Assembly: GCA_026014735.1 (NCBI GenBank)
Contig: JAOZHT010000001.1
Location: 434,001 to 498,000 of the forward strand
Length of the DNA: 64,000 bases
Direction: 5' to 3'
From: Candidatus Bathyarchaeota archaeon
Lineage (GTDB): Archaea > Thermoproteota > Bathyarchaeia > Bathyarchaeales > Bathycorpusculaceae
The notes under the pieces are model-generated. The model did not search any database. It had not been told where the DNA came from and saw only the letters and a list, made by a program, of their open reading frames with translations. A program made the translations under genes and the position numbers. Positions 4,830-16,651 of the stretch are shown piece after piece. Position 1 is the stretch's first letter; each line of letters opens with the position of its first letter.

Positions 4830-5177
4830 TTAGAGCCCCCAGGTTTGGGTAAGGGACTTTGTAGGCTGCTCCTTTTTGCTTTTCTCCTTCTTCTTCTCGT
4901 GGCTTTTGAAGCGGTTAATCTTCACGGTTGATGCTTCAATCGAAACATAGTGGGTGAGGTTTAAGTCGCGGTGGTAAATGTACTTCTTGACGGCGTGATG
5001 AAGCTCCGAAAGAGACGCCTCCTCAGTTTGCGCCACAATGAGTTTGCCTTTTTCTTGGTGGACCTCGGTTTTTAGGCGGGTTTGTAGAAATTTAGATAGA
5101 TTATCTGCTTCTTCTTTTAGGTCTCCTGGGTCGACTTGGAGTTTCTCTTGGGGTTGTTCTTTATGTTTAAACAGCAA
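4830..5177 (-). CDS. Lysine-rich small protein with eL22-like pattern
   Basis: This 115-residue protein starts at TTG 5177 behind a GGGGGT stretch. Residues about 18-90 show a pattern I associate with eukaryotic ribosomal protein eL22: an acidic lead, then NLSKFLQTRLK (human eL22 has NFEQFLQERIK), a beta strand KLIVAQTE, LHHAVKKYIYHRDLN (human: KYLTKKYLKKNNLR), and a final strand before a basic tail rich in Lys and Glu (KKKEKSKKE). Length and order agree, and an RNA-binding tail is plausible. This is a by-eye match and remote; otherwise the protein is unassigned. It lies at the edge of the tRNA-Pro repeat segment but its composition is like the chromosome. Confidence 0.45.
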   Translation of the reverse strand: MLFKHKEQPQEKLQVDPGDLKEEADNLSKFLQTRLKTEVHQEKGKLIVAQTEEASLSELHHAVKKYIYHRDLNLTHYVSIEASTVKINRFKSHEKKKEKSKKEQPTKSLTQTWGL

Positions 5178-5249: not shown

Positions 5250-5272
5250 TGGTGGGGCTTCCCGGATTTGAA
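5250..5272 (-). repeat. Degenerate tRNA-Pro 3'-end copy (outer att-like site)
   Basis: These 23 bases match exactly the CCA end, acceptor 3' strand and half of the T arm of the tRNA-Pro at 10469-10546. Beyond 5272 the match decays: the other T-stem strand no longer pairs with CCGGG, and no 5' half follows, so this is not a tRNA gene. As the outermost copy it would be the oldest, displaced tRNA end in an integration model. Confidence 0.75.
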
Positions 5273-5304
5273 TGCGGTCAATTCCATGGCCGACAAACCT
5301 TAGC

Positions 5305-5730
5305 TTATACCACTGGTAATCTTTTTATTCCCTCTATCTTGCTAAAGTGATCGTCAAAGGAGTAAACTTCCGCAATACCGTTTTGGCGCATCACATCCAA
5401 GGCTAACGCGTCGTTGGGGTCAAAACTGTAATCCTCACTTAACTCGACAGCAGCAAAATAGCCGTCGCGTGTTACATCCACGATTTTGACGTTGTCAAGC
5501 ATGAAGAGTCCCAGAATTACCCGTGTCAAAGAGTCTTTGGGCATACCATGTTTTAGGATGTTTACAACTTCGGACAGTTGAACGACGGTGGTTGTGATTT
5601 CTTCTTTGCCCTCAGAGACAGAGCGAATTATGTTTTGGGCCTGTTCTTTCATGGCTTGTTCTTTTTGGCTAAGCGGCTTTTTGGCCTTATAGTAGGCGTA
5701 GACAAAGATGTTGGCGTCTAGGAACCTCAT
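5305..5730 (-). CDS. vapC: PIN-domain toxin, VapC family
   Basis: This 141-residue PIN-domain nuclease has the acidic residues of the fold in order: Asp5 (LDANIF), Glu54 (QLSEVV), Asp107 (PNDALALDV) and Asp126/Asp127 (SFDDHF). VapC toxins cut RNA, commonly tRNA or rRNA, with Mg, and are held inactive by the partner antitoxin. It overlaps the upstream AbrB-like gene by 4 bp (ATGA), a translationally coupled toxin-antitoxin layout. It lies alone with that partner between two tRNA-Pro 3'-end repeats, suggesting acquisition by integration. Family assignment is firm; target RNA is unknown. Confidence 0.88.
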   Translation of the reverse strand: MRFLDANIFVYAYYKAKKPLSQKEQAMKEQAQNIIRSVSEGKEEITTTVVQLSEVVNILKHGMPKDSLTRVILGLFMLDNVKIVDVTRDGYFAAVELSEDYSFDPNDALALDVMRQNGIAEVYSFDDHFSKIEGIKRLPVV

Positions 5731-5984
5731 GGGTGTCTGCCAGCGTTTTTCTTTTCAAACTCTGTCCAGTTGCCAATGGAATCGACGCCTAAGTCTGCTT
5801 TGTCGAAGAACTCGGTTAAGTTAACTTTGCGTTTGGGAATCAGTTTTAGGCAGCCTTTTCGTTTTACAACGTAGACTTCTTTGGTTTCGTTAACTTCGGA
5901 TTCGCGCCAGTCAGCGGGTAGGATGATTCGGCCTTGTTGATCCAGTTTTTTGACTTCAACACCAGATTCCAATGTTTTCACCAT
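5727..5984 (-). CDS. vapB: SpoVT/AbrB-type antitoxin
   Basis: This 85-residue protein has an N-terminal swapped-hairpin AbrB domain: VEVKKLDQQGRIILPADWRE at about residues 9-28, with the typical QGRIILP core. Its C-terminal tail (about 50-85) would wrap the toxin. It precedes the PIN gene with a 4-bp overlap, so the pair is expressed in fixed order. AbrB antitoxins bind palindromes in their own promoter and repress the operon, which is expected but not demonstrated here. The start ATG at 5984 lies in an AT-rich region with several possible TATA boxes just upstream. Confidence 0.85.
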   Translation of the reverse strand: MVKTLESGVEVKKLDQQGRIILPADWRESEVNETKEVYVVKRKGCLKLIPKRKVNLTEFFDKADLGVDSIGNWTEFEKKNAGRHP

Positions 5985-6069
5985 AATATCGATGGATTAA
6001 CCATAATTAAAATATTCCGACAATCAACAAGGTTTTCAATGTTACATGCAGACCAAGCCTATGCGAAAG

Positions 6070-6102
6070 TGGTGGGGCTTCCCGGATTTGAACCGGGGTC
6101 TA
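6070..6102 (-). repeat. tRNA-Pro 3'-end copy (inner att-like site), 33 bp
   Basis: This stretch is identical over 33 bases to 10469-10501, covering the CCA, the acceptor 3' strand, the whole T arm and the variable-loop edge of tRNA-Pro. The match stops abruptly at 6103, and no acceptor 5' strand follows, so it cannot fold as a tRNA. It separates the toxin-antitoxin unit from the uptake operon and is best read as an integration scar. Confidence 0.85.
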
Positions 6103-6148
6103 CATGTTAAACCTCAATCGTTAGGCAGACGCTGCATAGTGCTGTCAC

Positions 6149-6934
6149 TCAGTGTGTGGTCGATGAAAGAAGAATAATATTATGATAGTTTGCAGACTTG
6201 TTATATTCGATTTCTGTTTTTACTTTAAAAACCTGTAAAATATTCTCAGGCGTCAAGACCTCTTTTGGGGTGCCTGCCGCATAGATTTTGCCACAGTGCA
6301 ATAGAAGCAATTTATCGCAATATCTTGAAGCGAAATTAAGTTCATGCGTAACCAACACGGTGATCAGTTTTTTTTCGCGGGTCAACTTTTGAATCAACGA
6401 CAGCAGGTCCAATTGATGATTGACATCTAAGTGCAATGTAGGTTCATCAAGAAGAAGAATTTGCGGTTCTTGAGTAAGTGCACGCGCGATGATTACACGT
6501 TGCATCTCGCCCCCGCTTAATTCAGTCACTGGTCTTTCTGATAAGTGCTCTATGCCCATCTGCTGCATTGCTTCTTCTACCGCTTTCAAATCCGTCGAGG
6601 TTTCTCCGCCTAACCTTTCAATGTATGGGGTTCGCCCCATCAGTATAGTTTCAAATACACTAAATGGGTAGAGCGAGTTTTCTTTCTGGGGCACAAGACC
6701 AATCTGCTTTGCAATTTCTCGCCTATCACTTAAGAAAAGATTCGCTTCATTGAGAAGAATTGATCCCTTTTTTGGTTTAAGCAAAAGATCGATGCATTTG
6801 AGCAACGTGCTTTTTCCTGAACCGTTAGGTCCAAGTATCCCAAACAAGTTGCCTTCTGTTACGTCGAACGTCACATCTTGGAGGATTTCGCTACTTTCAT
6901 AAGTGAAAGCCACATTTTTTACGCTTAGCTTCAA
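6149..6934 (-). CDS. ABC transporter ATP-binding protein, FecE/BtuD type
   Basis: This 261-residue ATPase has Walker A GPNGSGKST (35-43), a Q-loop at VPQKE, signature LSGGE (139-143), Walker B LLDEPT (161-166) and a switch histidine in VTHEL. It resembles the ATPases of iron-siderophore, heme and cobalamin importers. It ends a four-gene AT-rich operon (binding protein, radical SAM, permease, ATPase), 3 bp after the permease, and would power import on the cytoplasmic face. The substrate cannot be fixed from this subunit alone. Confidence 0.92.
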   Translation of the reverse strand: MKLSVKNVAFTYESSEILQDVTFDVTEGNLFGILGPNGSGKSTLLKCIDLLLKPKKGSILLNEANLFLSDRREIAKQIGLVPQKENSLYPFSVFETILMGRTPYIERLGGETSTDLKAVEEAMQQMGIEHLSERPVTELSGGEMQRVIIARALTQEPQILLLDEPTLHLDVNHQLDLLSLIQKLTREKKLITVLVTHELNFASRYCDKLLLLHCGKIYAAGTPKEVLTPENILQVFKVKTEIEYNKSANYHNIILLSSTTH

Positions 6935-6937
6935 TTT

Positions 6938-7999
6938 TTAAGCCACCTTTCTGTCTTTTTGAAGTATTATTGAGACGAAGAAGGGTGCGCCCACAAGGCC
7001 CATTATTACTCCTACGGGCACTTCTACAGGGTAGGTTATTGTTCGGGCTAATGTATCTGCTAACACAATCAGAATTGCGCCGCATAACCCTGATGCAGGC
7101 AACAAAACCCTATTGTCAGGTCCAACTAGTCTGCGTGTAATATGTGGTCCTACTAAACCTACAAACCCTATACAGCCACTTACAGAAACCGCTGCAGCGG
7201 TAATTAACGAAGCGGTGAACAGCAGTATTTTGGTTACATTTGAAACGTTTATGCCTAAACTCAGCGCCTGTTCTTCCCCGCTTAGAAAAACGTTGAGATC
7301 AAAACTAAAAATCATTGCCACAACGAATCCTATGGCAACCATTGGCAAGATTGTATAAAAGTCGGTCCATGTTGCAGACCATAACCCGCCAATTGTCCAA
7401 AAAACTATTGCGCGCAACTGTTCATCTGCTATATACATCAGCAAGGAGACAAGGGATGCAAAAAACAGGTTAATCGCCATGCCCACAAGCAGTACCGTGT
7501 TGATGCTCAATTTTCCTTTTTTCCGAGAAATCACGTAAACCAGAAGAGTAGTTAGTAACGCAAAAAGAAAAGCCATAATAGTTAACGTAAAAGTTCCAAA
7601 CACAACAATGTTCAATACAATTGCCATTGCAGCGCCAAAAGATGCGCCAGACGATATCCCCAAAAAGTAGGGTCCCGCTATTGGATTTCTGAATAAACCC
7701 TGAAGGATGCAGCCTGCAGCAGCTAACGCAAAACCGACCGCTACACCCAGCAGTATCCTGGGCAACCGGACAGTTAGAATTATGGCTTCTTGAGTTGGTG
7801 TCCAATTCGGCTCTATTAAGTTTGAGATACCGGGAATTTTGCTCAAAACGATTTTTGCGGCGCTATCGATGGACACATCAGCAATTCCTATACCGATTGT
7901 CCCGATTATCACCACGAACAAAATTATGCATAAAAGGATTATTGTTGCTGATTGCTTATGACGTGTATTCAGATATTTCTGTCTACCATTAAGAGTCAT
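6938..7999 (-). CDS. ABC transporter permease, FecCD/BtuC family
   Basis: This 353-residue permease begins with a short basic segment and a first membrane helix, and contains family hallmarks such as VRLPRILLGVAVGFALAAAG near residue 73, FRNPIAGPYFLGISSGASFG near 103 and GFVGLVGPHITRRLVG near 275. FecCD/BtuC permeases form the transmembrane dimer for Fe-siderophore, heme or vitamin B12 uptake. The start overlaps the end of the radical SAM gene by 11 bp, showing coupled translation. About ten helices are predicted, as in the family. Confidence 0.92.
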   Translation of the reverse strand: MTLNGRQKYLNTRHKQSATIILLCIILFVVIIGTIGIGIADVSIDSAAKIVLSKIPGISNLIEPNWTPTQEAIILTVRLPRILLGVAVGFALAAAGCILQGLFRNPIAGPYFLGISSGASFGAAMAIVLNIVVFGTFTLTIMAFLFALLTTLLVYVISRKKGKLSINTVLLVGMAINLFFASLVSLLMYIADEQLRAIVFWTIGGLWSATWTDFYTILPMVAIGFVVAMIFSFDLNVFLSGEEQALSLGINVSNVTKILLFTASLITAAAVSVSGCIGFVGLVGPHITRRLVGPDNRVLLPASGLCGAILIVLADTLARTITYPVEVPVGVIMGLVGAPFFVSIILQKDRKVA

Positions 8000-9326
8000 T
8001 GTTAAACCTCAGTAAGCTATGTTTCCATTTTTCTGAACAGAACTCAACGCATACATTTTGTCCCCATTCCGAGCCAAGATCAGTTAACTCTATTGTATCG
8101 TTGTTAACAGCAATCAATTTCTTGTTCAGTAATCGGTTGAAAACTTTAGGTAATGCCTGTTCCGGAGAAACACCGAATCTCTGTTGAAAATCCCTTTTAT
8201 CGATCTTCTGTAAGGCAAACCCTCTAGATAGGTACCTCCGTATCTCTTCTTGCGGAGACAACTCCACTACTTCAGTAATGGGACGTTTGTTTCCCTTTAT
8301 CATTTCCATGTAAGTGTGGGTTTCACCCGTATTGCGGTAAACCAAGTTGCCTAGATTTCCATTGCTCGAAACCCCCAAAGCAAGACAATCCATAGGGCTT
8401 ACTCGCAGTTGCTCGTAGATGCATTTAGCTGTGGGTCGGGTAAACTTGGCAATTATTGATTCTTGAATGTATCCTGCTTTGGTTAGTAATTCGACGGCCT
8501 TTTGATACATTGCCACCTCCATCGCAGGTTTGCCCACACTTAGGTTACCGGATTGAATTTGCGTTTGTAGGCGAGTATGAGGTTCAATGTGAAGTGCAAA
8601 GAAGCTGATGCTTTCAATTTCTAAATCTATAGCTGTTTGAACATCTTCCCCAAAGTCCTCAACTGTTTGACCGGGTAGATTATACATTAAATCTATGTCG
8701 ATGTTCGTGAAACCGATTTGATGGGCAGAGTTTATCCTTGAAATAACTTGTTTTTTTGTATCGGTTAGATTTAGCAGGCGCCGAATTGAATCGTTGAATG
8801 TTTGAACACCAAAACTAATTCTGTTAACTCCGGCATTTTTGGTAGAATTAAGCTTTTTTTCATCATAATTATGCGTGCATCCTTCAAGGGTTATTTCTGC
8901 GTTTGGTAAAAGATCGAAAATGCCCTTTGAGTGGATCACTAAATTGCATAATTGCTTTTCATTCAGAACTGTCGGTGTACCTCCCCCAATGTAAAGTGCA
9001 CCAAATTTGGTTGAACAAATATAGGGAGACTTCGCGTATTCAGTTAACTCGTTTGTTAATGCTGTCAGGTAAGCTTCAATATGTTTGTCAAGTTTGAAAA
9101 TTTTTGGGATAGCGCAAAATGAACAGAAAGAATCACAAAAGGGTATGTGAATGTATATTGCAGATGGGTTTTCTGGAAATTGGTTTTTGGTTTCAAGTAG
9201 TTTGTCAATGCAAGAGGTTTTTTTTGTTTGTTGAATAGGTGAGGAAGTGAATGGTTCTAGGGGATATAAAGGAAAAAATGCGCCTTTAATTCGGCGCTTG
9301 TAGGGCAGTTTAGGGTTAGCCTGCAA
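7989..9326 (-). CDS. Radical SAM protein, HemN/HemW/ChuW-like
   Basis: This 445-residue radical SAM enzyme carries the 4Fe-4S motif CDSFCSFC (Cys64, 68, 71) after IHIPF, the GGGTPT motif (113-118) and a HemN-like C-terminal domain. The family includes coproporphyrinogen dehydrogenase HemN, the heme chaperone HemW, and ChuW/HutW, which open the heme ring anaerobically and are encoded beside heme importers. Its place inside a binding-protein/permease/ATPase uptake operon, overlapping the permease start by 11 bp, favours a ChuW/HutW-like role on the imported tetrapyrrole. That is inference; a corrinoid or porphyrin chaperone is possible. No heme synthesis gene is in the window. Confidence 0.75.
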   Translation of the reverse strand: MQANPKLPYKRRIKGAFFPLYPLEPFTSSPIQQTKKTSCIDKLLETKNQFPENPSAIYIHIPFCDSFCSFCAIPKIFKLDKHIEAYLTALTNELTEYAKSPYICSTKFGALYIGGGTPTVLNEKQLCNLVIHSKGIFDLLPNAEITLEGCTHNYDEKKLNSTKNAGVNRISFGVQTFNDSIRRLLNLTDTKKQVISRINSAHQIGFTNIDIDLMYNLPGQTVEDFGEDVQTAIDLEIESISFFALHIEPHTRLQTQIQSGNLSVGKPAMEVAMYQKAVELLTKAGYIQESIIAKFTRPTAKCIYEQLRVSPMDCLALGVSSNGNLGNLVYRNTGETHTYMEMIKGNKRPITEVVELSPQEEIRRYLSRGFALQKIDKRDFQQRFGVSPEQALPKVFNRLLNKKLIAVNNDTIELTDLGSEWGQNVCVEFCSEKWKHSLLRFNNDS

Positions 9327-9332
9327 GTCGGA

Positions 9333-10292
9333 TTAAACCCCGAAGAGTTCAGGATGACACCATTTAGCGAAGGCATCTACACCGTCTGCTACCGAGGGGC
9401 CCCAACCGTATTTGTAGAATTCGATTACATAGATACGGTCGTTCTTTACTGCGTTTATGTTGCTCCAGCCGGGTCGCTCTTTTATTGTTTCGACCGTTGT
9501 TCCGTATTCTTCTTTGTTTAGGGCGTCGAGGATTATGACATCAGGATTTTTGTCAAGTACATATTCTGCGCTAACAACTGGGAAACGAATCGCGCTATCA
9601 CCGTAAATGTTTATGCCGCCTGCCCAAGAAATCATTTGATTCTGCATTGCTTCCTGGCCTACGCTTACCATTTCTCCTTGCAGTGAACTTTCAAAATAGA
9701 CTGTTGGGCGTTCGTCTGAACTGAGGTTTTCTGTTAACGATTTGACCTCGTTGAATTGTGTTTCAAGATCTGAAGCAAGCTGGTTTGCCTTGTCTGTTTT
9801 ATCCATGATTAAGCCAATCTGTTGAATGTTTTTGGTAATGTCATAGAGGGTCTTTGTGTCGAGGGTTACGATGGTTATTCCTTTTTCTTCGATGGATTGT
9901 GTTACTTCAGGGAACAGCGGGAGTGTAAAAATTATATCGGGTTTTAAAGCGACTATTTGCTCTATGTTAACTTCCCACATGTAACCCACATCGGGTAAAT
10001 TTCCTATTACTTTCCAGACTTCAGGGGTATAATGTACTGCTGTGAAATCTTTCCCTACTATGGTGTCTCCGCATCCTATTGCACATAGGATTTCGGCCAT
10101 TCCAGGCTGCAATGCGATTGTGCGTTTGGGTGTTTGGGGTATTTCTACAACTCTTCCAGCAGCATCCACTACTGTTAACCCTTCCGAGTGGGCATTTACT
10201 GTTGAGTTTAGCGCTGCAAATAGCGCGTAGCTACTTCCAAATGTTATGGCTATCAAAAGAATGACGGTTAGGTAAAGTACATTTTTTTTCAT
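9333..10292 (-). CDS. Substrate-binding protein, FecB/BtuF family
   Basis: This 319-residue extracellular binding protein has an N-terminal hydrophobic signal or anchor (residues 5-28) and the class III fold: TVVDAAGRVVEIPQTPKRTI near residue 40, a first lobe, a long linking helix around 160-200, and a second lobe. Such proteins capture Fe-siderophores, heme or cobalamin. It leads the four-gene operon, with a clear AAAGGAGAT ribosome-binding site ahead of the ATG at 10292 and a near-palindrome upstream that could be its operator. Confidence 0.88.
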   Translation of the reverse strand: MKKNVLYLTVILLIAITFGSSYALFAALNSTVNAHSEGLTVVDAAGRVVEIPQTPKRTIALQPGMAEILCAIGCGDTIVGKDFTAVHYTPEVWKVIGNLPDVGYMWEVNIEQIVALKPDIIFTLPLFPEVTQSIEEKGITIVTLDTKTLYDITKNIQQIGLIMDKTDKANQLASDLETQFNEVKSLTENLSSDERPTVYFESSLQGEMVSVGQEAMQNQMISWAGGINIYGDSAIRFPVVSAEYVLDKNPDVIILDALNKEEYGTTVETIKERPGWSNINAVKNDRIYVIEFYKYGWGPSVADGVDAFAKWCHPELFGV

Positions 10293-10312
10293 TTTTTCTT
10301 TTTATCTCCTTT

Positions 10313-10346
10313 CTAGTAATACTTTTTCAAAAAAAAGTAACACTAG
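10313..10346. promoter_or_regulatory. Inverted repeat in uptake-operon promoter
   Basis: Two 17-base arms match at 13 positions (arms begin CTAG and contain TACTTTTT), lying 21 bases upstream of the binding-protein ATG. On the minus strand a TATA-like TTTATTC is immediately upstream, so the repeat covers the expected transcription start, where a repressor would block initiation. A metal- or heme-responsive regulator is a natural candidate, but none is encoded in the segment. Confidence 0.5.
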
Positions 10347-10468
10347 AATAAATCCCTTCCGCACCAACAAGCGCTATCTTCTGGTTCAACAGCTCAACTT
10401 CCGCAAAAAATAGATTAAAAATTCCATTCAAAAAAGCACGATCCTCTTACAGGATAACCGAAAATGAA

Positions 10469-10546
10469 TGGTGGGGCTTCCCGGATTTGAACCGGGGTCT
10501 ATAGCGCCCGAGGCTACAAGCCTGGACCAAGCTAGCCGAAAGCCCC
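10469..10546 (-). tRNA. tRNA-Pro (anticodon CGG), CCA encoded
   Basis: The minus strand folds as a full cloverleaf without intron: acceptor GGGGCTT/AAGCCCC, D stem GGCT/GGCT with wobble pairs, anticodon stem GTAGC/GCTAT around loop CTCGGGC (anticodon CGG, proline), a four-base variable loop and T arm CCCGG-TTCAAAT-CCGGG. A73 and an encoded CCA occupy 10469-10472. AT-rich sequence at 10562-10576 is a plausible TATA box. Its last 33 bases are copied at 6070 and partly at 5250, marking it as an integration target. Confidence 0.93.
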
Positions 10547-10738: not shown

Positions 10739-11113
10739 TTGTCGCAGTCCACATGGAAAAAACCGGTAATTTGTATTTTCAGGGAACGCAACGTCAACCC
10801 CGAATCCGACCCCTTCGTGGTGATTATGGCACGCCAAATAACCCTCTCGGCGGGTGAGAACCCCAAATTCGCCGGCGCCATCGACGACTTCTTCACGCTC
10901 ATGGGCGACACAGATTATCTGTCCTCCGTTGAGGGCAAAGCTGACCACTACGTGATGTGCTGGTTTGACAACGACGAACCCGACATGTCCAAGGACCTGC
11001 GGCGGCTAAGAGGCGTGCGCTTCACGGGGGACGTGGTTTGCAGCGAAAGCCCCAAAACCCACAAGCGAACCTACAACGCCACGTTTAGCGCTGAGCAGGG
11101 CAAAACAAAGTAG
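10739..11113 (+). CDS. Conserved-looking hypothetical protein, 124 aa
   Basis: The frame starts at TTG 10739, after GAGG, with a TATA box (TTTATATAA) near 10698-10706. The protein is soluble, with no membrane segment. It holds a beta-rich first half (ICIFRERN, PFVVIMARQITLS) and a GAIDDFFTLMGDTDYLSS helix region. I do not recognise the family. It lies just upstream of and in the same direction as the formylmethanofuran dehydrogenase operon, but a 148-bp gap suggests a separate promoter. Confidence 0.6.
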   Translation: MSQSTWKKPVICIFRERNVNPESDPFVVIMARQITLSAGENPKFAGAIDDFFTLMGDTDYLSSVEGKADHYVMCWFDNDEPDMSKDLRRLRGVRFTGDVVCSESPKTHKRTYNATFSAEQGKTK

Positions 11114-11261: not shown

Positions 11262-11678
11262 ATGGTGGAGCAAAAAATACGGGCAACCCTCATTACTGGA
11301 AGAACTATCGATCAGGGTGTAGGAAAGGAACTGGGCAAGGGCTCAAAAGAATACTACGATAGCGCCGCAGTATGTTTTCTAGACAAAGCCGACATCGTCA
11401 AGCTCGGCTTGAAGGGCGGAGCAAAAGTTCGAGTGACCTCCAAATTCGGCTCGGTGGTTGTTAAAGCCAAAAAGTTCCCCAACACGATGACTAACATGGT
11501 TTTCATGCCCTGTGGCCTTTGGGCTAACGCAGTAACCGGCGACGACACCTACAGCATGGGTATGCCCCTCTTCAAAGGATTCCCCGTTGAAGTGGAACCA
11601 GCGCCCAACGAAGCGGTCTTGACCTTAGATGAGCTTTTACTCAAACAATTCGGAAAGAAGGGAATAACTAATGAGTAA
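11262..11678 (+). CDS. fwdD: Formylmethanofuran dehydrogenase subunit D
   Basis: This 138-residue protein is the molybdopterin-dinucleotide-binding beta-barrel subunit. It shows ATLITGRTIDQG (8-19), EYYDSAAVCFLD (30-41), VTSKFGSVVVKA (58-69) and FMPCGLWAN (81-89). With FwdB it forms the Mo/W-bis-pyranopterin site that reduces CO2 to formate, which FwdA joins to methanofuran. It heads the operon fwdD-B-A-C and overlaps fwdB by 8 bp. In an organism without visible mcr the complex probably feeds the tetrahydromethanopterin branch of the Wood-Ljungdahl pathway. Confidence 0.9.
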   Translation: MVEQKIRATLITGRTIDQGVGKELGKGSKEYYDSAAVCFLDKADIVKLGLKGGAKVRVTSKFGSVVVKAKKFPNTMTNMVFMPCGLWANAVTGDDTYSMGMPLFKGFPVEVEPAPNEAVLTLDELLLKQFGKKGITNE

Positions 11679-13239
11679 AGTACATGAAAATGTCGTTTGT
11701 CCCATCTGCGGTTGCCTCTGCGACGACTTAGAAGTCACCGTGGAGAACAACGAAATCGTCAAAATGAAGAACGGATGCTCCGTCTGCGAAGCCAAAATGG
11801 TGCATGGCTACAAAAGCGAAGAACGCATCCTAAAACCCCACATCCGCAAAAACGGGGAACTCGTACCCGTCTCGATGGATGAAGCCATCAAGAAAGCCGC
11901 TCAAATCCTAACCGACGCCAAGTATCCGCTGCTGTTCGGCTGGAGCAGCACAGTCGGCGAAGCACAACGCATCGGCGTTGAATTAGCTGAGGAACTCGGT
12001 TCAGCGTTGGATAACTGCTGCAGCGTCTGCCATGGCCCCTCCGTTATGGCCACCCAAGAAATCGGTATACCCGCTGCTACTCTGGGCCAAATCAGGCACC
12101 GCGCAGACTTGATTGTTTACTGGGCATGCAACCCCTGGGCTAGCCACCCCCGCCATGTAGAGCGATACACAGCTTTCACTGACGGACGCTTCGAAGGAAG
12201 CGAATGGAAGGACTTCATGCAGAAAATGAAGGCCGGTGCAAGCCGCAAAAAAATGGAGGTTGCCTCCAAACGGATCGCCCGCACTGAACCGCCTATCCGC
12301 CCCGCCGTATGCTTCAATGGTCCGCCTCCACAGACCCTGCAGAAGCATGGACGCAAACTAATCGTGGTGGATGTCCGCAGAACCATGACTTCGGAGGCAG
12401 CTGACTACTTCCTGCAGATTGAACCCAACCGCGACTACGACGTCATCGAAGCCCTGCGATGTCTTGTTCAGGACCAAGAAATCGACGTTGACAAAGTCGG
12501 CGGCATACCCGTTGATTACCTGCGTGACGTCGCAGACGCCATGATGGGCTGCGAATTCGGCGTCATCTACTTCGGTTTAGGCATGACTCAGAGCCTGGGC
12601 AGATTCCGAAACATCGAAATCGCCATTGCCCTCGCACGTGACCTTAACCGCAAAACCAAATTCATCATCTCTCCGATGCGTGGCCACTTCAACGTTACAG
12701 GCGCCAACACTGTGTTTGCTTGGCAAACCGGTTACCCCTACGCAATCGACTTCTCACAGGGCTACCCCCAGTATAACCCCGGCGAAAACACCGCCATGGA
12801 CCTGCTAAAACACGGCGACAACGACGCAACGATGGTTATCTCCGCTGACCCCGGCGCCCACTTCCCCAAAGTCGCCATACAGAACATGATGAAGCATCCA
12901 CTCATCACCATAAACCCCGACTGGAACGCGATTAGCAGGCTAGGCGACGTGGTGTTTCCGACGCAGTGGTGCGGCATCGAATACGAAGGCACCGCTTACC
13001 GCATGGACTCGGTTCCCATAACGCTCAAGAAAGTGGTTGAGCCACCCAAGGGCGTGTTAACCGACGAGCAACTCCTAAACCGCATACTTGAAGAGGTCCG
13101 CGCCATCAAAGTTAAACGTGGCGAAATGGTTGAACAGGCCGAAGTGAAGGTTGCGCATAAAGAGGCAACTGAGGCGCCGATGGTCTGCAAGGCTCCGGTT
13201 AAACCTAGAAAAGCAGTGAAAAAGAAGGTGGCGGCTTAA
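11671..13239 (+). CDS. fwdB: Formylmethanofuran dehydrogenase subunit B
   Basis: This 522-residue catalytic subunit binds a 4Fe-4S cluster through the N-terminal cysteine motif CPICGCLCDD (10-19). It holds the Mo/W site, whose protein ligand is probably Cys120 in CHGPS; it is a cysteine codon, not selenocysteine. The remaining sequence is the molybdopterin oxidoreductase fold, with YFGLGMTQSLG and GHFNVTGAN. A basic and Ala/Val/Pro-rich tail of about 40 residues (485-522) extends beyond the usual core. It overlaps fwdD by 8 bp and shares one base with fwdA (TAATG). Confidence 0.93.
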   Translation: MSKVHENVVCPICGCLCDDLEVTVENNEIVKMKNGCSVCEAKMVHGYKSEERILKPHIRKNGELVPVSMDEAIKKAAQILTDAKYPLLFGWSSTVGEAQRIGVELAEELGSALDNCCSVCHGPSVMATQEIGIPAATLGQIRHRADLIVYWACNPWASHPRHVERYTAFTDGRFEGSEWKDFMQKMKAGASRKKMEVASKRIARTEPPIRPAVCFNGPPPQTLQKHGRKLIVVDVRRTMTSEAADYFLQIEPNRDYDVIEALRCLVQDQEIDVDKVGGIPVDYLRDVADAMMGCEFGVIYFGLGMTQSLGRFRNIEIAIALARDLNRKTKFIISPMRGHFNVTGANTVFAWQTGYPYAIDFSQGYPQYNPGENTAMDLLKHGDNDATMVISADPGAHFPKVAIQNMMKHPLITINPDWNAISRLGDVVFPTQWCGIEYEGTAYRMDSVPITLKKVVEPPKGVLTDEQLLNRILEEVRAIKVKRGEMVEQAEVKVAHKEATEAPMVCKAPVKPRKAVKKKVAA

Positions 13240-14936
13240 TGACTGAGGTTTTAATCAAAAACGGCTTCGTCGTCGATCCTCTGCAGAAAATTAACTGTGA
13301 AAAGATGGATATAGCCATCAAAGACGGCAAAATCGTCTCGAAAGTCAGCGGCAAAGCCAAAGTAATCGATGCATCAGGCATGACGGTTATGGCTGGCGGC
13401 GTAGATATCCACAGTCACGTAGCCGGTGCAGAAGTTAACATGGGCCGAATGATTCGCCCCGAAGACCACTACAAAGATGTCGTGGCAAAAACCGCCATCA
13501 CCCGCGCGGGCACAGGTTACTCTATTCCCTCCACCTTCGTCACCGGCTACCGCTACAGCACCATGGGTTACACCTCGGTCTTTAACGGCTCCATCGCCCC
13601 GCTTAAAGCCAAACACTGCCACGAAGAACTAAACGATATTCCATTGATGGACAAAGCTACCTATGTTCTGATGGGTGACTGGTGGTTTGTTCTGGAGAAC
13701 CTCGCTAAAGGCGACATCGACGAATGCGCCCGCCTCGTAGCTTGGCTTATGCATGCCTCAAGGGGATACGCCATCAAAGTCGTTAACCCCGGCGGATTGG
13801 AATCCTGGGGTTTTGGCCGCAACGTGCACAGCATCGACGATCAGGTGCCAAACTTCTGTATCACGCCCCGAGAGATCATGCGTGGCTTAGTTAAAGTCAA
13901 CAAGAAACTCAACCTGCCCCACACCATTCACCTGCACACTAACAACCTCGGAGTCCCCGGCAACTACCAAACCACCCTTGACACCATGGCGGCGCTGGAG
14001 GACCTCTCAACCGACGGCAAACCAGTTGCCCATATTACCCATGTTCAATTCGCCGCGTTTAAAGGGGAAAACTGGGGTAAATTCAAGTCTGGCGCGGAAG
14101 AAATCGCCCGGTACATGAACGGCCACACCCATATGACTCTAGATATGGGTCAAGTAACCTTCGCCGACACCACCACCATGACAGCTGACGGACCCTTCGA
14201 ATTCAGCCTCTACGAACTCGGCGGACACAACAAGTGGGTTAACAGCGACGTGGAAACCGAAAGCAGCGGCGGCATCATTCCCTTCCACTACAAGAAGAAA
14301 AGCCCCGTTAACGCGCTACAGTGGAGCATAGGCTTAGAAATTGCTCTCCTCATAAAGGACCCCTGGAAAATCTTCATGACCACCGACCACCCCAACGGCG
14401 GACCCTTCTACGATTACCCCAAAGTGCTGGCTTGGCTATACAGCAAAAAAGCCCGCGAAGCCACCCTGGCAAAGTGCCACAAGAGCGCCCGCAAAAAGAG
14501 CCTGCTTCCCTCCATAGATCGGGAGATGTCTCTCTACGAGATCGCCATCATGACCCGCGCTGGCACAGCAAAAGCCTTGGGCTTACCTAACAAGGGTCAC
14601 CTCGGCGTAGGCGCAGACGCGGACGTAGCGGTCTTTAATATTAACCCTGAAACCTTAGATATCGCAAAGAAATTCCGAACCGCACGCAAAGCCCTCACCG
14701 ACGCAGCCTACACCCTCAAAGACGGCGTAATCGTCGCTAAAGCAGGCCAAGTCGTCGACAGCACTGTGCCGGGTAAAACCATTTGGCTTGATGTCCAAAC
14801 CAAAGACCCCTGCAGAATCGATGATGACATGAAACGCAAATTCAAAGAGTACTGGACTATCGAGTACGAAAACTACCCCGTCACGGACCATTACGTTAAG
14901 GTTCCAGACAAATTAACCATAAAGGCAAGTGTTTAG
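13239..14936 (+). CDS. fwdA: Formylmethanofuran dehydrogenase subunit A
   Basis: This 565-residue subunit is a metal-dependent amidohydrolase that condenses formate with methanofuran at a binuclear zinc site. The ligands are visible: His58 and His60 (DIHSH), the carboxylated lysine Lys180 (GYAIKVVNPGG), His231/His233 (HLHTNN), His268 (ITHVQF) and Asp383 (TTDHPNGG). Length is normal. It starts on the fwdB stop and is followed by fwdC two bases later, so translation is coupled. Formate reaches it through an internal tunnel from FwdB in the known complex. Confidence 0.95.
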   Translation: MTEVLIKNGFVVDPLQKINCEKMDIAIKDGKIVSKVSGKAKVIDASGMTVMAGGVDIHSHVAGAEVNMGRMIRPEDHYKDVVAKTAITRAGTGYSIPSTFVTGYRYSTMGYTSVFNGSIAPLKAKHCHEELNDIPLMDKATYVLMGDWWFVLENLAKGDIDECARLVAWLMHASRGYAIKVVNPGGLESWGFGRNVHSIDDQVPNFCITPREIMRGLVKVNKKLNLPHTIHLHTNNLGVPGNYQTTLDTMAALEDLSTDGKPVAHITHVQFAAFKGENWGKFKSGAEEIARYMNGHTHMTLDMGQVTFADTTTMTADGPFEFSLYELGGHNKWVNSDVETESSGGIIPFHYKKKSPVNALQWSIGLEIALLIKDPWKIFMTTDHPNGGPFYDYPKVLAWLYSKKAREATLAKCHKSARKKSLLPSIDREMSLYEIAIMTRAGTAKALGLPNKGHLGVGADADVAVFNINPETLDIAKKFRTARKALTDAAYTLKDGVIVAKAGQVVDSTVPGKTIWLDVQTKDPCRIDDDMKRKFKEYWTIEYENYPVTDHYVKVPDKLTIKASV

Positions 14937-14938
14937 AC

Positions 14939-15748
14939 ATGATAACCCTAACACCCCTCAAAGCATTCGACGTTCCCATCCAAGCCCCCTGCATTACACC
15001 CGACAACTTTGCAGGCAAAACACCCGCGGAAATCGCCAAGCTCCCCCTCACCGAAGGCAACCGAAACCTCACAGTCGGCGACCTCTTCAAAGTCGAAGAG
15101 TCACCTCAAGCCTCCCCAAACATCACCTTAAACGGCGACTTCAGCAAAGTCAAACGCATCGGTCAACGCATGAAAACAGGCGAAATCCTCTGCAGCGGCA
15201 ACATCGGCATGCACACGGGCGAAATGATGGCGGGCGGCAAAATCACAGTTAACGGCAGCGCAGGCGGCTGGACAGGCAGCGAAATGAAAAAAGGCTCCAT
15301 CGAAATCCACGGTGACGGCGGAGACTACCTTGCTTCGCCATCCAGAGGCAACGATGCAGGCATGAAGGGCGGCTTAATCATCGTTGACGGCAACGTCGGC
15401 ACCGATGTGGGCTGCTACCTTAAAGGCGGCATCATAAAAATCAAAGGCTCCGCAGGCAGATTCCTCGGCTACCACATGTCTGACGGCGCAATCTACGTTG
15501 AGAAAGACGCGGATGTCCGAACAGGCGCATGCATGAGCGGCGGAAAAATCGTGGTCGGCGGCAAACTCGAAGTACTGCCCTCTTTCACCATCGACAGCGT
15601 TAAACCCAAAGTCAAAGTCGACGACGCAACCAACGTGCCAGGTCCCTTCTACGTGTTTTTAGGCGACCTCAGCGAGCATGGCACAGGCAAAATCTTCGCC
15701 AACAAAGCCGCGAACACAGCCATGAAGTTCTACGAGAAATACCTCTAA
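14939..15748 (+). CDS. fwdC: Formylmethanofuran dehydrogenase subunit C
   Basis: This 269-residue structural subunit shows the right-handed beta-helix of glycine-rich repeats also found in glutamate synthase C-terminal domains, for example SGNIGMHTGEMMAGGKITVN, GSAGGWTGSEMKKGSIEIHG and GNVGTDVGCYLKGGIIKIKG. It holds FwdA and FwdB together. It closes the operon; no fwdF, fwdG or fwdE follows, so the electron-input ferredoxin subunits must be elsewhere or replaced. Confidence 0.93.
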   Translation: MITLTPLKAFDVPIQAPCITPDNFAGKTPAEIAKLPLTEGNRNLTVGDLFKVEESPQASPNITLNGDFSKVKRIGQRMKTGEILCSGNIGMHTGEMMAGGKITVNGSAGGWTGSEMKKGSIEIHGDGGDYLASPSRGNDAGMKGGLIIVDGNVGTDVGCYLKGGIIKIKGSAGRFLGYHMSDGAIYVEKDADVRTGACMSGGKIVVGGKLEVLPSFTIDSVKPKVKVDDATNVPGPFYVFLGDLSEHGTGKIFANKAANTAMKFYEKYL

Positions 15749-15865
15749 AACAAGGGTTAACCCCCTGCTTTCCCTTTTGTTTACTTGCATGTTTAAGTCT
15801 TAGGTGTTCTGCCGAATCACTTATCAACTCCTAAGGATTCAAACCTCAAGGGCACAGGTGATGTT

Positions 15866-16651
15866 ATGCGGCAGGTTGACATGACACGGCTTGACTTATC
15901 CGCGGGAGCAGCCACAGCGATGCGTGACTGGGTCGCCGAGGAGGTTCCGTTGAAAATCATCATAAACGATGCTTATACCTTCATTATCTGGTGCTCGCCC
16001 AGCCAGTATAAGGAACTTGCCGTTGGGCACCTCTACGCCGAAGATATTCTGCATTCAATAGACGAGTTAGAATCCATAACATCCGACCAAACACAAAACG
16101 TCTGCCATGTGCAATTCAAAGCTGACATCAACATAGACGAGCGCATGGAGAACCGCCGTCGGGGAGCCCGCATCGTGCCGCTTCTGAAAGCCAGCACCGC
16201 AGCTTACCAGAAAGACCACAAACTCGCGGTGGTAAACTCGGATTTAACCGTTAAAGCCCAGGTTATTTTGGATGCTGTAGCGCAGATGAACCAGAAAGCC
16301 ACTGGGTTCCGGGAAACCGGCGGCTTGCATGACAGCGGCATCTTTACAGCCGACGGCACAATGGTTGCATTCTCCGAGGATGTGGGCAGACACAACACCG
16401 TCGACAAAGTCATCGGTGAAGCATTACTTAAACGCCTTGACTGTGGCGGATGCTTCTTGGTTATCACGGGCAGGGTGCCTGGCGACATGATTTTTAAGGC
16501 GGCTAAGGTGGGGTTGCCTATTTTGGCGTCGGTGGCGGCGGTGCTTAACTCAGGCGTCGCCTCAGCGGAGAAAGCCAACGTTTGCGTCGTGGGGTTTGTG
16601 CGGGGTAAACGCATGAACGTTTACACTTGCCCCCAGAGAATTCTGCTCTAA
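15866..16651 (+). CDS. fdhD: FdhD-like sulfurtransferase, Cys motif absent
   Basis: This 261-residue protein has clear FdhD signatures: GFRETGGLHDSGIF (near 150), EDVGRHNTVDKVIG (near 172), ITGRVPGDM and the C-terminal GFVRGKRMNVYT. FdhD passes sulfur from a desulfurase to the Mo/W-bis-PGD cofactor so that formate dehydrogenases become active. The flexible loop that normally carries the CxxC sulfur acceptor instead reads MENRRRGARIVPLLK with no cysteine; the only cysteines before the core are at about 43 and 80. It follows fwdDBAC closely and no formate dehydrogenase is in view, so the client is probably Fwd. It converges on mobB with a 4-bp overlap. Confidence 0.85.
   Translation: MRQVDMTRLDLSAGAATAMRDWVAEEVPLKIIINDAYTFIIWCSPSQYKELAVGHLYAEDILHSIDELESITSDQTQNVCHVQFKADINIDERMENRRRGARIVPLLKASTAAYQKDHKLAVVNSDLTVKAQVILDAVAQMNQKATGFRETGGLHDSGIFTADGTMVAFSEDVGRHNTVDKVIGEALLKRLDCGGCFLVITGRVPGDMIFKAAKVGLPILASVAAVLNSGVASAEKANVCVVGFVRGKRMNVYTCPQRILL

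Follow-up and report, generated by a model that had tools for sequence, protein, structure and literature searches.

The stretch analysed here, called the window, is a 64-kb part (C1:434001-498000) of a 1.14-Mb contig from a Candidatus Bathyarchaeota archaeon, whose genome (2.91 Mb in 10 contigs) we label G000. Close to its left end, a tRNA-Pro(CGG) gene is followed by two small cargo units, each closed by a copy of the 3' end of the tRNA. The inner unit, next to the tRNA, holds a four-gene ABC transporter operon (6149-10292); the outer unit (5250-6070) holds a toxin gene and its partner only. In window coordinates, the features of the locus are the following:

4830..5177, minus strand: flank gene to the left of the units, without a family match, lying directly behind the tRNA in the relatives G011 and G018 (locus comparison)
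5250..5272, minus strand: 23-bp copy of the tRNA-Pro(CGG) 3' end (76% over 33 bp), outer boundary of the vapBC unit (repeat comparison, local scoring)
5305..5730, minus strand: predicted PIN-domain toxin, VapC-like (PF01850, E = 1.5e-14)
5727..5984, minus strand: predicted MraZ/MazE-like antitoxin, whose gene overlaps that of the toxin (PF02381, E = 5.4e-06)
6070..6102, minus strand: exact 33-bp copy of the tRNA-Pro(CGG) 3' end, outer boundary of the inner unit (repeat comparison, local scoring)
6149..6934, minus strand: ABC transporter ATPase of the inner operon (PF00005, E = 4.6e-36)
6938..7999, minus strand: FecCD-type permease of the inner operon (PF01032, E = 9.8e-89)
7989..9326, minus strand: ChuW/HutW-like radical SAM protein of the inner operon (TIGR04107, 278 bits, below the model cut-off of 400)
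9333..10292, minus strand: substrate-binding protein of the inner operon (PF01497, E = 9.3e-38)
10469..10546, minus strand: tRNA-Pro(CGG), the target gene, which the inner unit would have restored (ARAGORN)
10739..11113, plus strand: flank gene on the other side of the tRNA, without an NCBIfam match (open reading frame, locus comparison)

An initial annotation, made from the sequence alone, had described this locus as a tRNA 3' end copied twice around two cargo units. Repeat comparison and local scoring confirm its repeats: positions 6070-6102 and 10469-10501 are identical over 33 bp and positions 5250-5272 match over 23 bp, all on one strand and all terminating in the CCA of the tRNA. Among the three sites, only 10469-10546 is a whole tRNA. 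The last 46 bases of the tRNA reach a local score of 33 at 6070 and 24.5 at 5250, against at most 13.5 elsewhere in the window, so chance is a poor explanation. With the tRNA and the copies at 6070 and 5250, both units retain an attachment site (att) on either side. A search for further copies, proposed in the same annotation, finds no other exact occurrence in the genome of the 23-mer common to the three sites; at five positions there are copies with one to three mismatches, and a second tRNA-Pro site accounts for three of these.

The Pfam assignments of the six genes bear out the division of the cargo made initially, with one unit limited to a toxin-antitoxin pair and the other to an uptake operon. 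In the outer unit, a PF01850 PIN toxin gene overlaps the adjoining gene of a DNA-binding antitoxin of the PF02381/PF04014 kind, the arrangement by which we recognise VapBC. The inner operon would serve the uptake of haem or a corrinoid. Both units lie on a common strand and have a low GC content, 0.437 for the vapBC unit and 0.413 for the operon unit, against 0.505 in the left and 0.521 in the right flank: the AT-richness reported at first holds.

If the units were inserted, the initial annotation argued, an empty site in relatives should join the sequence left of 5250 directly to the tRNA. This junction exists in two genomes of the same genus. In G011, the orthologue of flank gene 4830-5177 lies about 65 bp behind tRNA-Pro(CGG) and the units are absent; in G018, the orthologue stands behind tRNA-Pro(CGG) in the same way, the tRNA having an intron. 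The sequence after the CCA in both resembles the stretch left of 5250. These are two of 11 fetched same-genus tRNA-Pro(CGG) loci; in G025 the flank gene is 2.4 kb away, and the remaining eight, with no flank gene in the stretch, are uninformative. The intron-bearing tRNA of G018 (L094:9160-9265) is called tRNA-His by ARAGORN, and several intron-bearing tRNAs of these genomes are missed under its default settings.

Three observations place the vapBC unit first and the operon later. Compared with the tRNA over 33 bp, the inner copy is 100% identical and the outer one 76%. The HutW-like gene, at E<=1e-60, is absent from all 31 other same-genus genomes; it occurs in nine of 90 family genomes including its own, with at most 37% identity in the others. 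In G029, the stretch from ubiA to tRNA-Pro(CGG) contains a decayed vapBC unit flanked on either side by tRNA-Pro-like sequence, and the cargo that separates this unit from the tRNA is different. The two units have thus been inserted in series at the 3' end of tRNA-Pro(CGG), vapBC being the older and the uptake operon the later, tRNA-proximal one. This serial integration, with the outermost copy oldest, had been put forward initially; it is supported by the two empty sites and the more decayed outer copy, and also by vapBC relatives between tRNA-Pro ends in five other genomes and by the distribution of the HutW-like gene in the genus. The operon is not fully unique: 5' of its tRNA-Pro(CGG), G009 encodes relatives of the substrate-binding protein, the permease and the ATPase at 33-45% identity.

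The units could instead have come in one event, as a single composite element made of both cargo blocks and an internal tRNA-end copy. They are alike in strand and low GC, and in bacteria composites formed by accretion can move whole (PMC5704250; for this and all other PMC numbers, the statement is limited to the available excerpts of the paper). The unequal decay of the two boundaries, together with the arrangement in G029, makes a single event very unlikely. Even less probable, in our judgement close to negligible, is that the genes are residents inherited vertically and the tRNA copies products of local duplication. The empty sites, the lower GC of the units and the patchy occurrence of the cargo (VapC relatives in 16 of 90 family genomes at E<=1e-15, the HutW-like gene in nine) all oppose inheritance, with which a weakly resolved vapC tree is nonetheless compatible; duplication has a possible parallel in G003, with two whole tRNA-Pro(TGG) genes 1.8 kb apart, against which stands that the copies studied here hold the tRNA 3' end only. 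The vapC tree was also rejected as proof of transfer, since 2 of its 14 inner branches reach the support mark of the tool. In G003, both genes (L103:954-1031 and 2765-2842) are called whole and the second has an altered T stem.

No recombinase accompanies the two units, as the initial annotation had stated. There are no integration or transfer genes among the six cargo genes according to Pfam, tblastn with 11 tyrosine recombinase queries (six SSV-type, five other) finds no tyrosine recombinase in either unit, and neither method detects a remnant of an integrase or transfer gene there. SSV-type integrative elements, reportedly those of She et al., carry an integrase split by att into intN and intC; the window units have no such halves. 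A weak intN match beside the window tRNA (27 residues, 52%, E = 0.005) was not counted as a remnant: about 10 of its residues are att-coded, and an in-frame stop precedes them. The same queries were run against 24 stretches with tRNA-bounded units, homologous units included and one stretch (L136) covering two units. No integrase domain was found in any of them, while integrase-bearing controls were detected; the residual matches span at most 27 residues and are mostly att-coded. A search for tyrosine integrases elsewhere in the genome, also suggested initially, yields five enzymes:

C2:145205 and C1:891632: SSV-type integrases of G000
C1:279 kb, C1:315 kb and C2:805 kb: further tyrosine recombinases of G000

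The genome therefore encodes enzymes able in principle to act in trans, and some of them may act on the modules.

The two units are not alone: Bathyarchaeia contain further modules that end in tRNA tails and lack an integrase, and together these form one wider set. Scanning the genome with a tRNA 3'-end pattern gives 36 strict matches, eight or nine of which cannot be completed to a tRNA. A 15.8-kb element occupies tRNA-Pro(TGG) of the same genome. Its att, 46 bp long, splits an SSV-type integrase, whose C half starts within the copy at C2:145205 and whose N half reads into the tRNA at C2:160979. In tandem behind this element is a 1.6-kb integrase-less unit encoding a PadR regulator and a PIN toxin together with a small partner. 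At tRNA-Arg(CCT), a 548-bp unit consists of HicB and HicA (E = 1.9e-20 for HicA), and the adjoining unit is one gene of 478 amino acids without a Pfam match. A 2.1-kb unit at tRNA-Leu(CAA) contains an AAA/OLD-like gene in two frames. More units are present in G013, G025, G009 and G007, for instance a lone DEAD helicase or an ABC pair between tRNA ends; in G006, G014, G017, G018 and G078 there is no obvious neighbouring tRNA-end pair among the matches listed. The first frame of the AAA/OLD-like gene, which is of a defence type (L055:6290-8163, C1:384.3-386.2 kb), starts inside the tRNA-Leu(CAA) end.

Of 14 clear unit families, 13 have their cargo co-directional with the tRNA; for first open reading frames of at least 100 amino acids behind tRNAs, the figure is 15 of 34 (Fisher p = 0.003). 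We take this as no more than a hint of an orientation bias, because families were grouped after viewing and the hicBA unit of G099, found later and outside this count, has the opposite orientation. Homologous units had been merged, and two mixed-strand units and one without a clear gene were left out.

Relatives of the vapBC unit recur between tRNA ends. Taking the 13 loci with at least 55% identity, our own included, and requiring a score above the maximum of 100 shuffles, tRNA-Pro 3' sequence flanks vapBC on both sides in six: the window, G013, G063, G061, G005 and G029. All six have the same order (tRNA end, vapB, vapC, tRNA end), and two different tRNA-Pro genes are involved. The unit of G013, 873 bp long, stands at tRNA-Pro(TGG) and its tRNA and copy differ by one mismatch in 46; in G024, vapBC is near the flank gene without tRNA ends. 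The vapC gene contains stops in G029 and G017. That the vapBC family should always be linked to tRNA genes was rejected, given six of the 13 close loci and three of 34 loci from GTDB (examined out of 51 fetched). A search for viral contigs with this vapBC confirmed none of 36 pattern-matching stretches.

HicA shows a similar recurrence: it has 26 loci in 22 of the 90 family genomes, and at four of the 26 loci tRNA ends lie on both sides of hicBA. These four units, of 548-696 bp, come from four genera and three tRNA genes:

G000: hicBA unit of 548 bp at tRNA-Arg(CCT)
G095: hicBA unit of 575 bp at tRNA-Arg(GCG), score 19 against a shuffle maximum of 15
G099: hicBA unit of 696 bp at tRNA-Glu(CTC), score 18 against 13, hicBA opposite to the direction of the tRNA
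G100: hicBA between two Arg(GCG)-like ends 594 bp apart, score 18 against 18, with one of 500 shuffles equally high

Arg-like sequence is found on one side in G105 (HicB 92% identical, 67 bp away) and G022 (HicB 84% identical, 60 bp away), and an end-like stretch is near hicBA in G005. The HicB gene of G105 (L265:2332-2575), in another genus and 67 bp from a decayed tRNA-Arg end, has no HicA found beside it.

A helicase unit connects two genera. In G025, tRNA-Leu(TAG) and a copy of its end enclose a single gene, which encodes a helicase of 805 amino acids. Its relatives occupy 29 loci in 27 of the 90 genomes. The four closest (G025, then G084 at 93%, G007 at 88% and G000 at 86%) have a tRNA-Leu end beside the gene, with scores of at least 24.5 against shuffle maxima of 13-15.5; the other 25 loci, at 75% identity or below, are mostly without one (L223 scores 15 against 13, and L230 and L231 have other tRNA sequence nearby). 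G084, of another genus, matches G025 at 91.9% DNA identity along 2645 bp that start with the last 26 bases of the tRNA and stop where the far copy ends; outside the helicase unit, blastn finds no similarity between the two. At the protein level, the helicases are 93.2% identical, against 72.6% for FwdA. This comparison indicates that an integrase-less helicase module crossed genera or, already in that form, came to both from a third source. Inheritance may account for the unit in G025, G007 and G000, which are close (FwdA 88-91%). Next to the tRNA of G084 and of G000 lies an integrase, and a short tRNA-end copy separates the integrase-bearing insertion from the helicase unit, as expected if a later element inserted between tRNA and helicase.

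These recurrent units bear on whether the modules lost an integrase or never brought one. Had they decayed in place, they would be leftovers of an autonomous virus or plasmid that, once integrated, lost its integrase and replication genes by deletion and kept those under selection, for instance an addictive toxin-antitoxin pair or a useful uptake operon. Archaeal elements that lack an integrase are usually explained by its loss after integration (PMC8371274), and toxin-antitoxin pairs would resist being lost. Decayed copies and cargo, such as the vapC genes with stops and the AAA gene in two frames, fit this account, as does a zinc-finger-like match of 14 residues in L143. On the other side, the helicase unit carries no integrase in either genus and can be aligned across its whole length, both tRNA ends included; compact hicBA units recur in four genera, and no intN or intC piece lies beside att in the 24 stretches, where the short matches start in or run into att. 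The 92% DNA identity of the helicase unit across genera, set against 73% for FwdA, and the recurrent hicBA favour movement without an own integrase; we hold decay in place to be unlikely, although a serious competitor. The initial annotation had left the choice between mobilisation in trans and loss open. The cross-genus helicase unit and hicBA at three tRNA genes tip it towards trans; for the window units themselves, this part is unproven.

We consider it likely, therefore, that the window contains two one-operon modules that were serially inserted at the 3' end of tRNA-Pro(CGG), arrived without an integrase of their own and were moved by the tyrosine integrase of another element. The enzyme would recombine the 3' end of the tRNA gene with a tRNA tail on an incoming circle; the tRNA would be made whole again by the newly arrived tail, and the previous tail would move outward. 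A module without an integrase would be served by a helper enzyme in trans, or by a helper in tandem; the helper integrase could be of SSV-type or of the class seen at tRNA-Leu. The easiest route would be tandem accretion: an integrase-bearing element lies next to the tRNA with the module behind it, and the two depart as one. The helper element would have gone later. The modules would then work like cis-mobilizable elements, and the vapBC pair probably helps the retention of its unit.

Several observations weigh against this explanation. Excision, a circle or transfer has not been observed. Seven of the 13 close vapBC loci have no significant tRNA-end pair, and under a strict test a tRNA is nearby in only three of the 34 GTDB loci, all three from Bathyarchaeota. 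Margins over shuffles are small for some vapBC loci (for example 14.0 against 12.0) and in places for hicBA, as in G100; several tRNA-end copies are decayed, and the far copy of the helicase unit was not seen in G000. The match in L143, of 14-16 residues to the zinc-finger part of one integrase (best E = 0.017), may be an integrase remnant. Finally, the att copies in the window measure 33 and 23 bp and fall short of the 46 bp found in the SSV-type element, which leaves the window units without an assigned helper.

The closest known kind would be the bacterial cis-mobilizable elements (CIMEs). Like these, as described in PMC5704250, the window-type units have att on both sides and lack integration and transfer genes. 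Tandem arrays with integrase-bearing elements at a tRNA 3' end, another trait of CIMEs, occur for some units of the set: the one next to the C2 SSV-type element shows this arrangement, as does the helicase unit of G084 and of G000. The window site has no such tandem now. Unlike CIMEs, the units are archaeal, consist of a single gene or operon and go down to about 0.55 kb, and their proposed helpers have SSV-type split or other tyrosine integrases and are not integrative and conjugative elements (ICEs). Bacterial CIMEs are moreover described as decayed ICEs or integrative and mobilizable elements (PMC5704250), whereas one unit here appears to have crossed genera already reduced. SSV-type elements share the integration at tRNA 3' ends (PMC3293823), and the neighbouring C2 element has their split integrase with a 46-bp att; the window units differ by the lack of integrase halves and by shorter copies.

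Related remnants are known from archaea. Partial tRNA copies at element ends, tandem integration and integrase-less elements have all been reported (PMC9897764, PMC3718332, PMC8371274), the last ascribed to loss after integration (PMC8371274), and the tRNA fragments that integration leaves behind are recognised as a difficulty for annotation (PMC9897764). Sulfolobus islandicus LAL14/1 has remnants of 13 insertions at tRNA genes, with vapBC pairs among the transferred genes (PMC3718332); at the tRNA-Thr locus of Caldiarchaeum, a 1.8-kb insertion includes a recombinase (PMC3293823), and cryptic thaumarchaeal elements were characterised through their integrase (PMC6563490). In contrast to the remnants as the excerpts describe them, the present units hold one operon and recur at several tRNA genes or appear to cross genera without an integrase. 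Our literature search for archaeal tRNA-bounded, cis-mobilizable or non-autonomous units, from whose coverage subscription papers largely fall out, met no description of one-operon integrase-less tRNA units.

The units also resemble the gene cassettes of integrons, known in archaea as well (PMC9668308). Both hold a single gene or operon, follow one another in tandem, mostly with the same orientation, and have their recombinase encoded elsewhere. They differ in having tRNA 3' ends as sites; no attC, attI or IntI platform was noticed alongside, no search for attC or IntI having been made. We offer, as a tentative idea that is rather doubtful at present, that Bathyarchaeia possess a gene-cassette system with tRNA 3' ends as recombination sites, a tRNA-based counterpart of integrons in which integrase-less toxin-antitoxin, defence-like and uptake modules, each of one gene or operon with a tRNA tail at its end, stack behind tRNAs and are shuffled within and between genera by the tyrosine integrases of resident viruses or plasmids.

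Integrase-less archaeal islands are usually ascribed to decay. If the modules do move as proposed, tRNA genes would be places where individual genes, among them toxin-antitoxin and defence genes, are captured with no viral or conjugative body attached. The tails left behind could then serve to trace many of the accessory genes next to archaeal tRNAs and to put them in order of time, and modules could be paired in a testable way with the integrases that could move them.

Some further observations concern possible helpers and the surroundings of the locus. The motif GGTGA..TCTCC immediately precedes the T-arm tRNA copy both in an integrase-bearing element from G011 (L202:14740) and in two integrase-less units of G013 (L139:2431 and 4633); it may be an integrase binding site common to helper and module. 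It is absent from the tRNA-tail copies of the window. Another ABC uptake operon of G000 (L149:2927-6089, C1:887.9-891.1 kb) resembles the inner unit and is directed away from a 3' copy of tRNA-Val that neighbours an SSV-type integrase; it was rejected as a bounded unit, because no second tRNA-Val copy scores above shuffles. To the right of the tRNA, window positions 11262-16651 hold what we take to be genes for formylmethanofuran dehydrogenase subunits, followed by an FdhD-like gene. The orthologues of these genes lie on the opposite side of the tRNA in G016 and G018.

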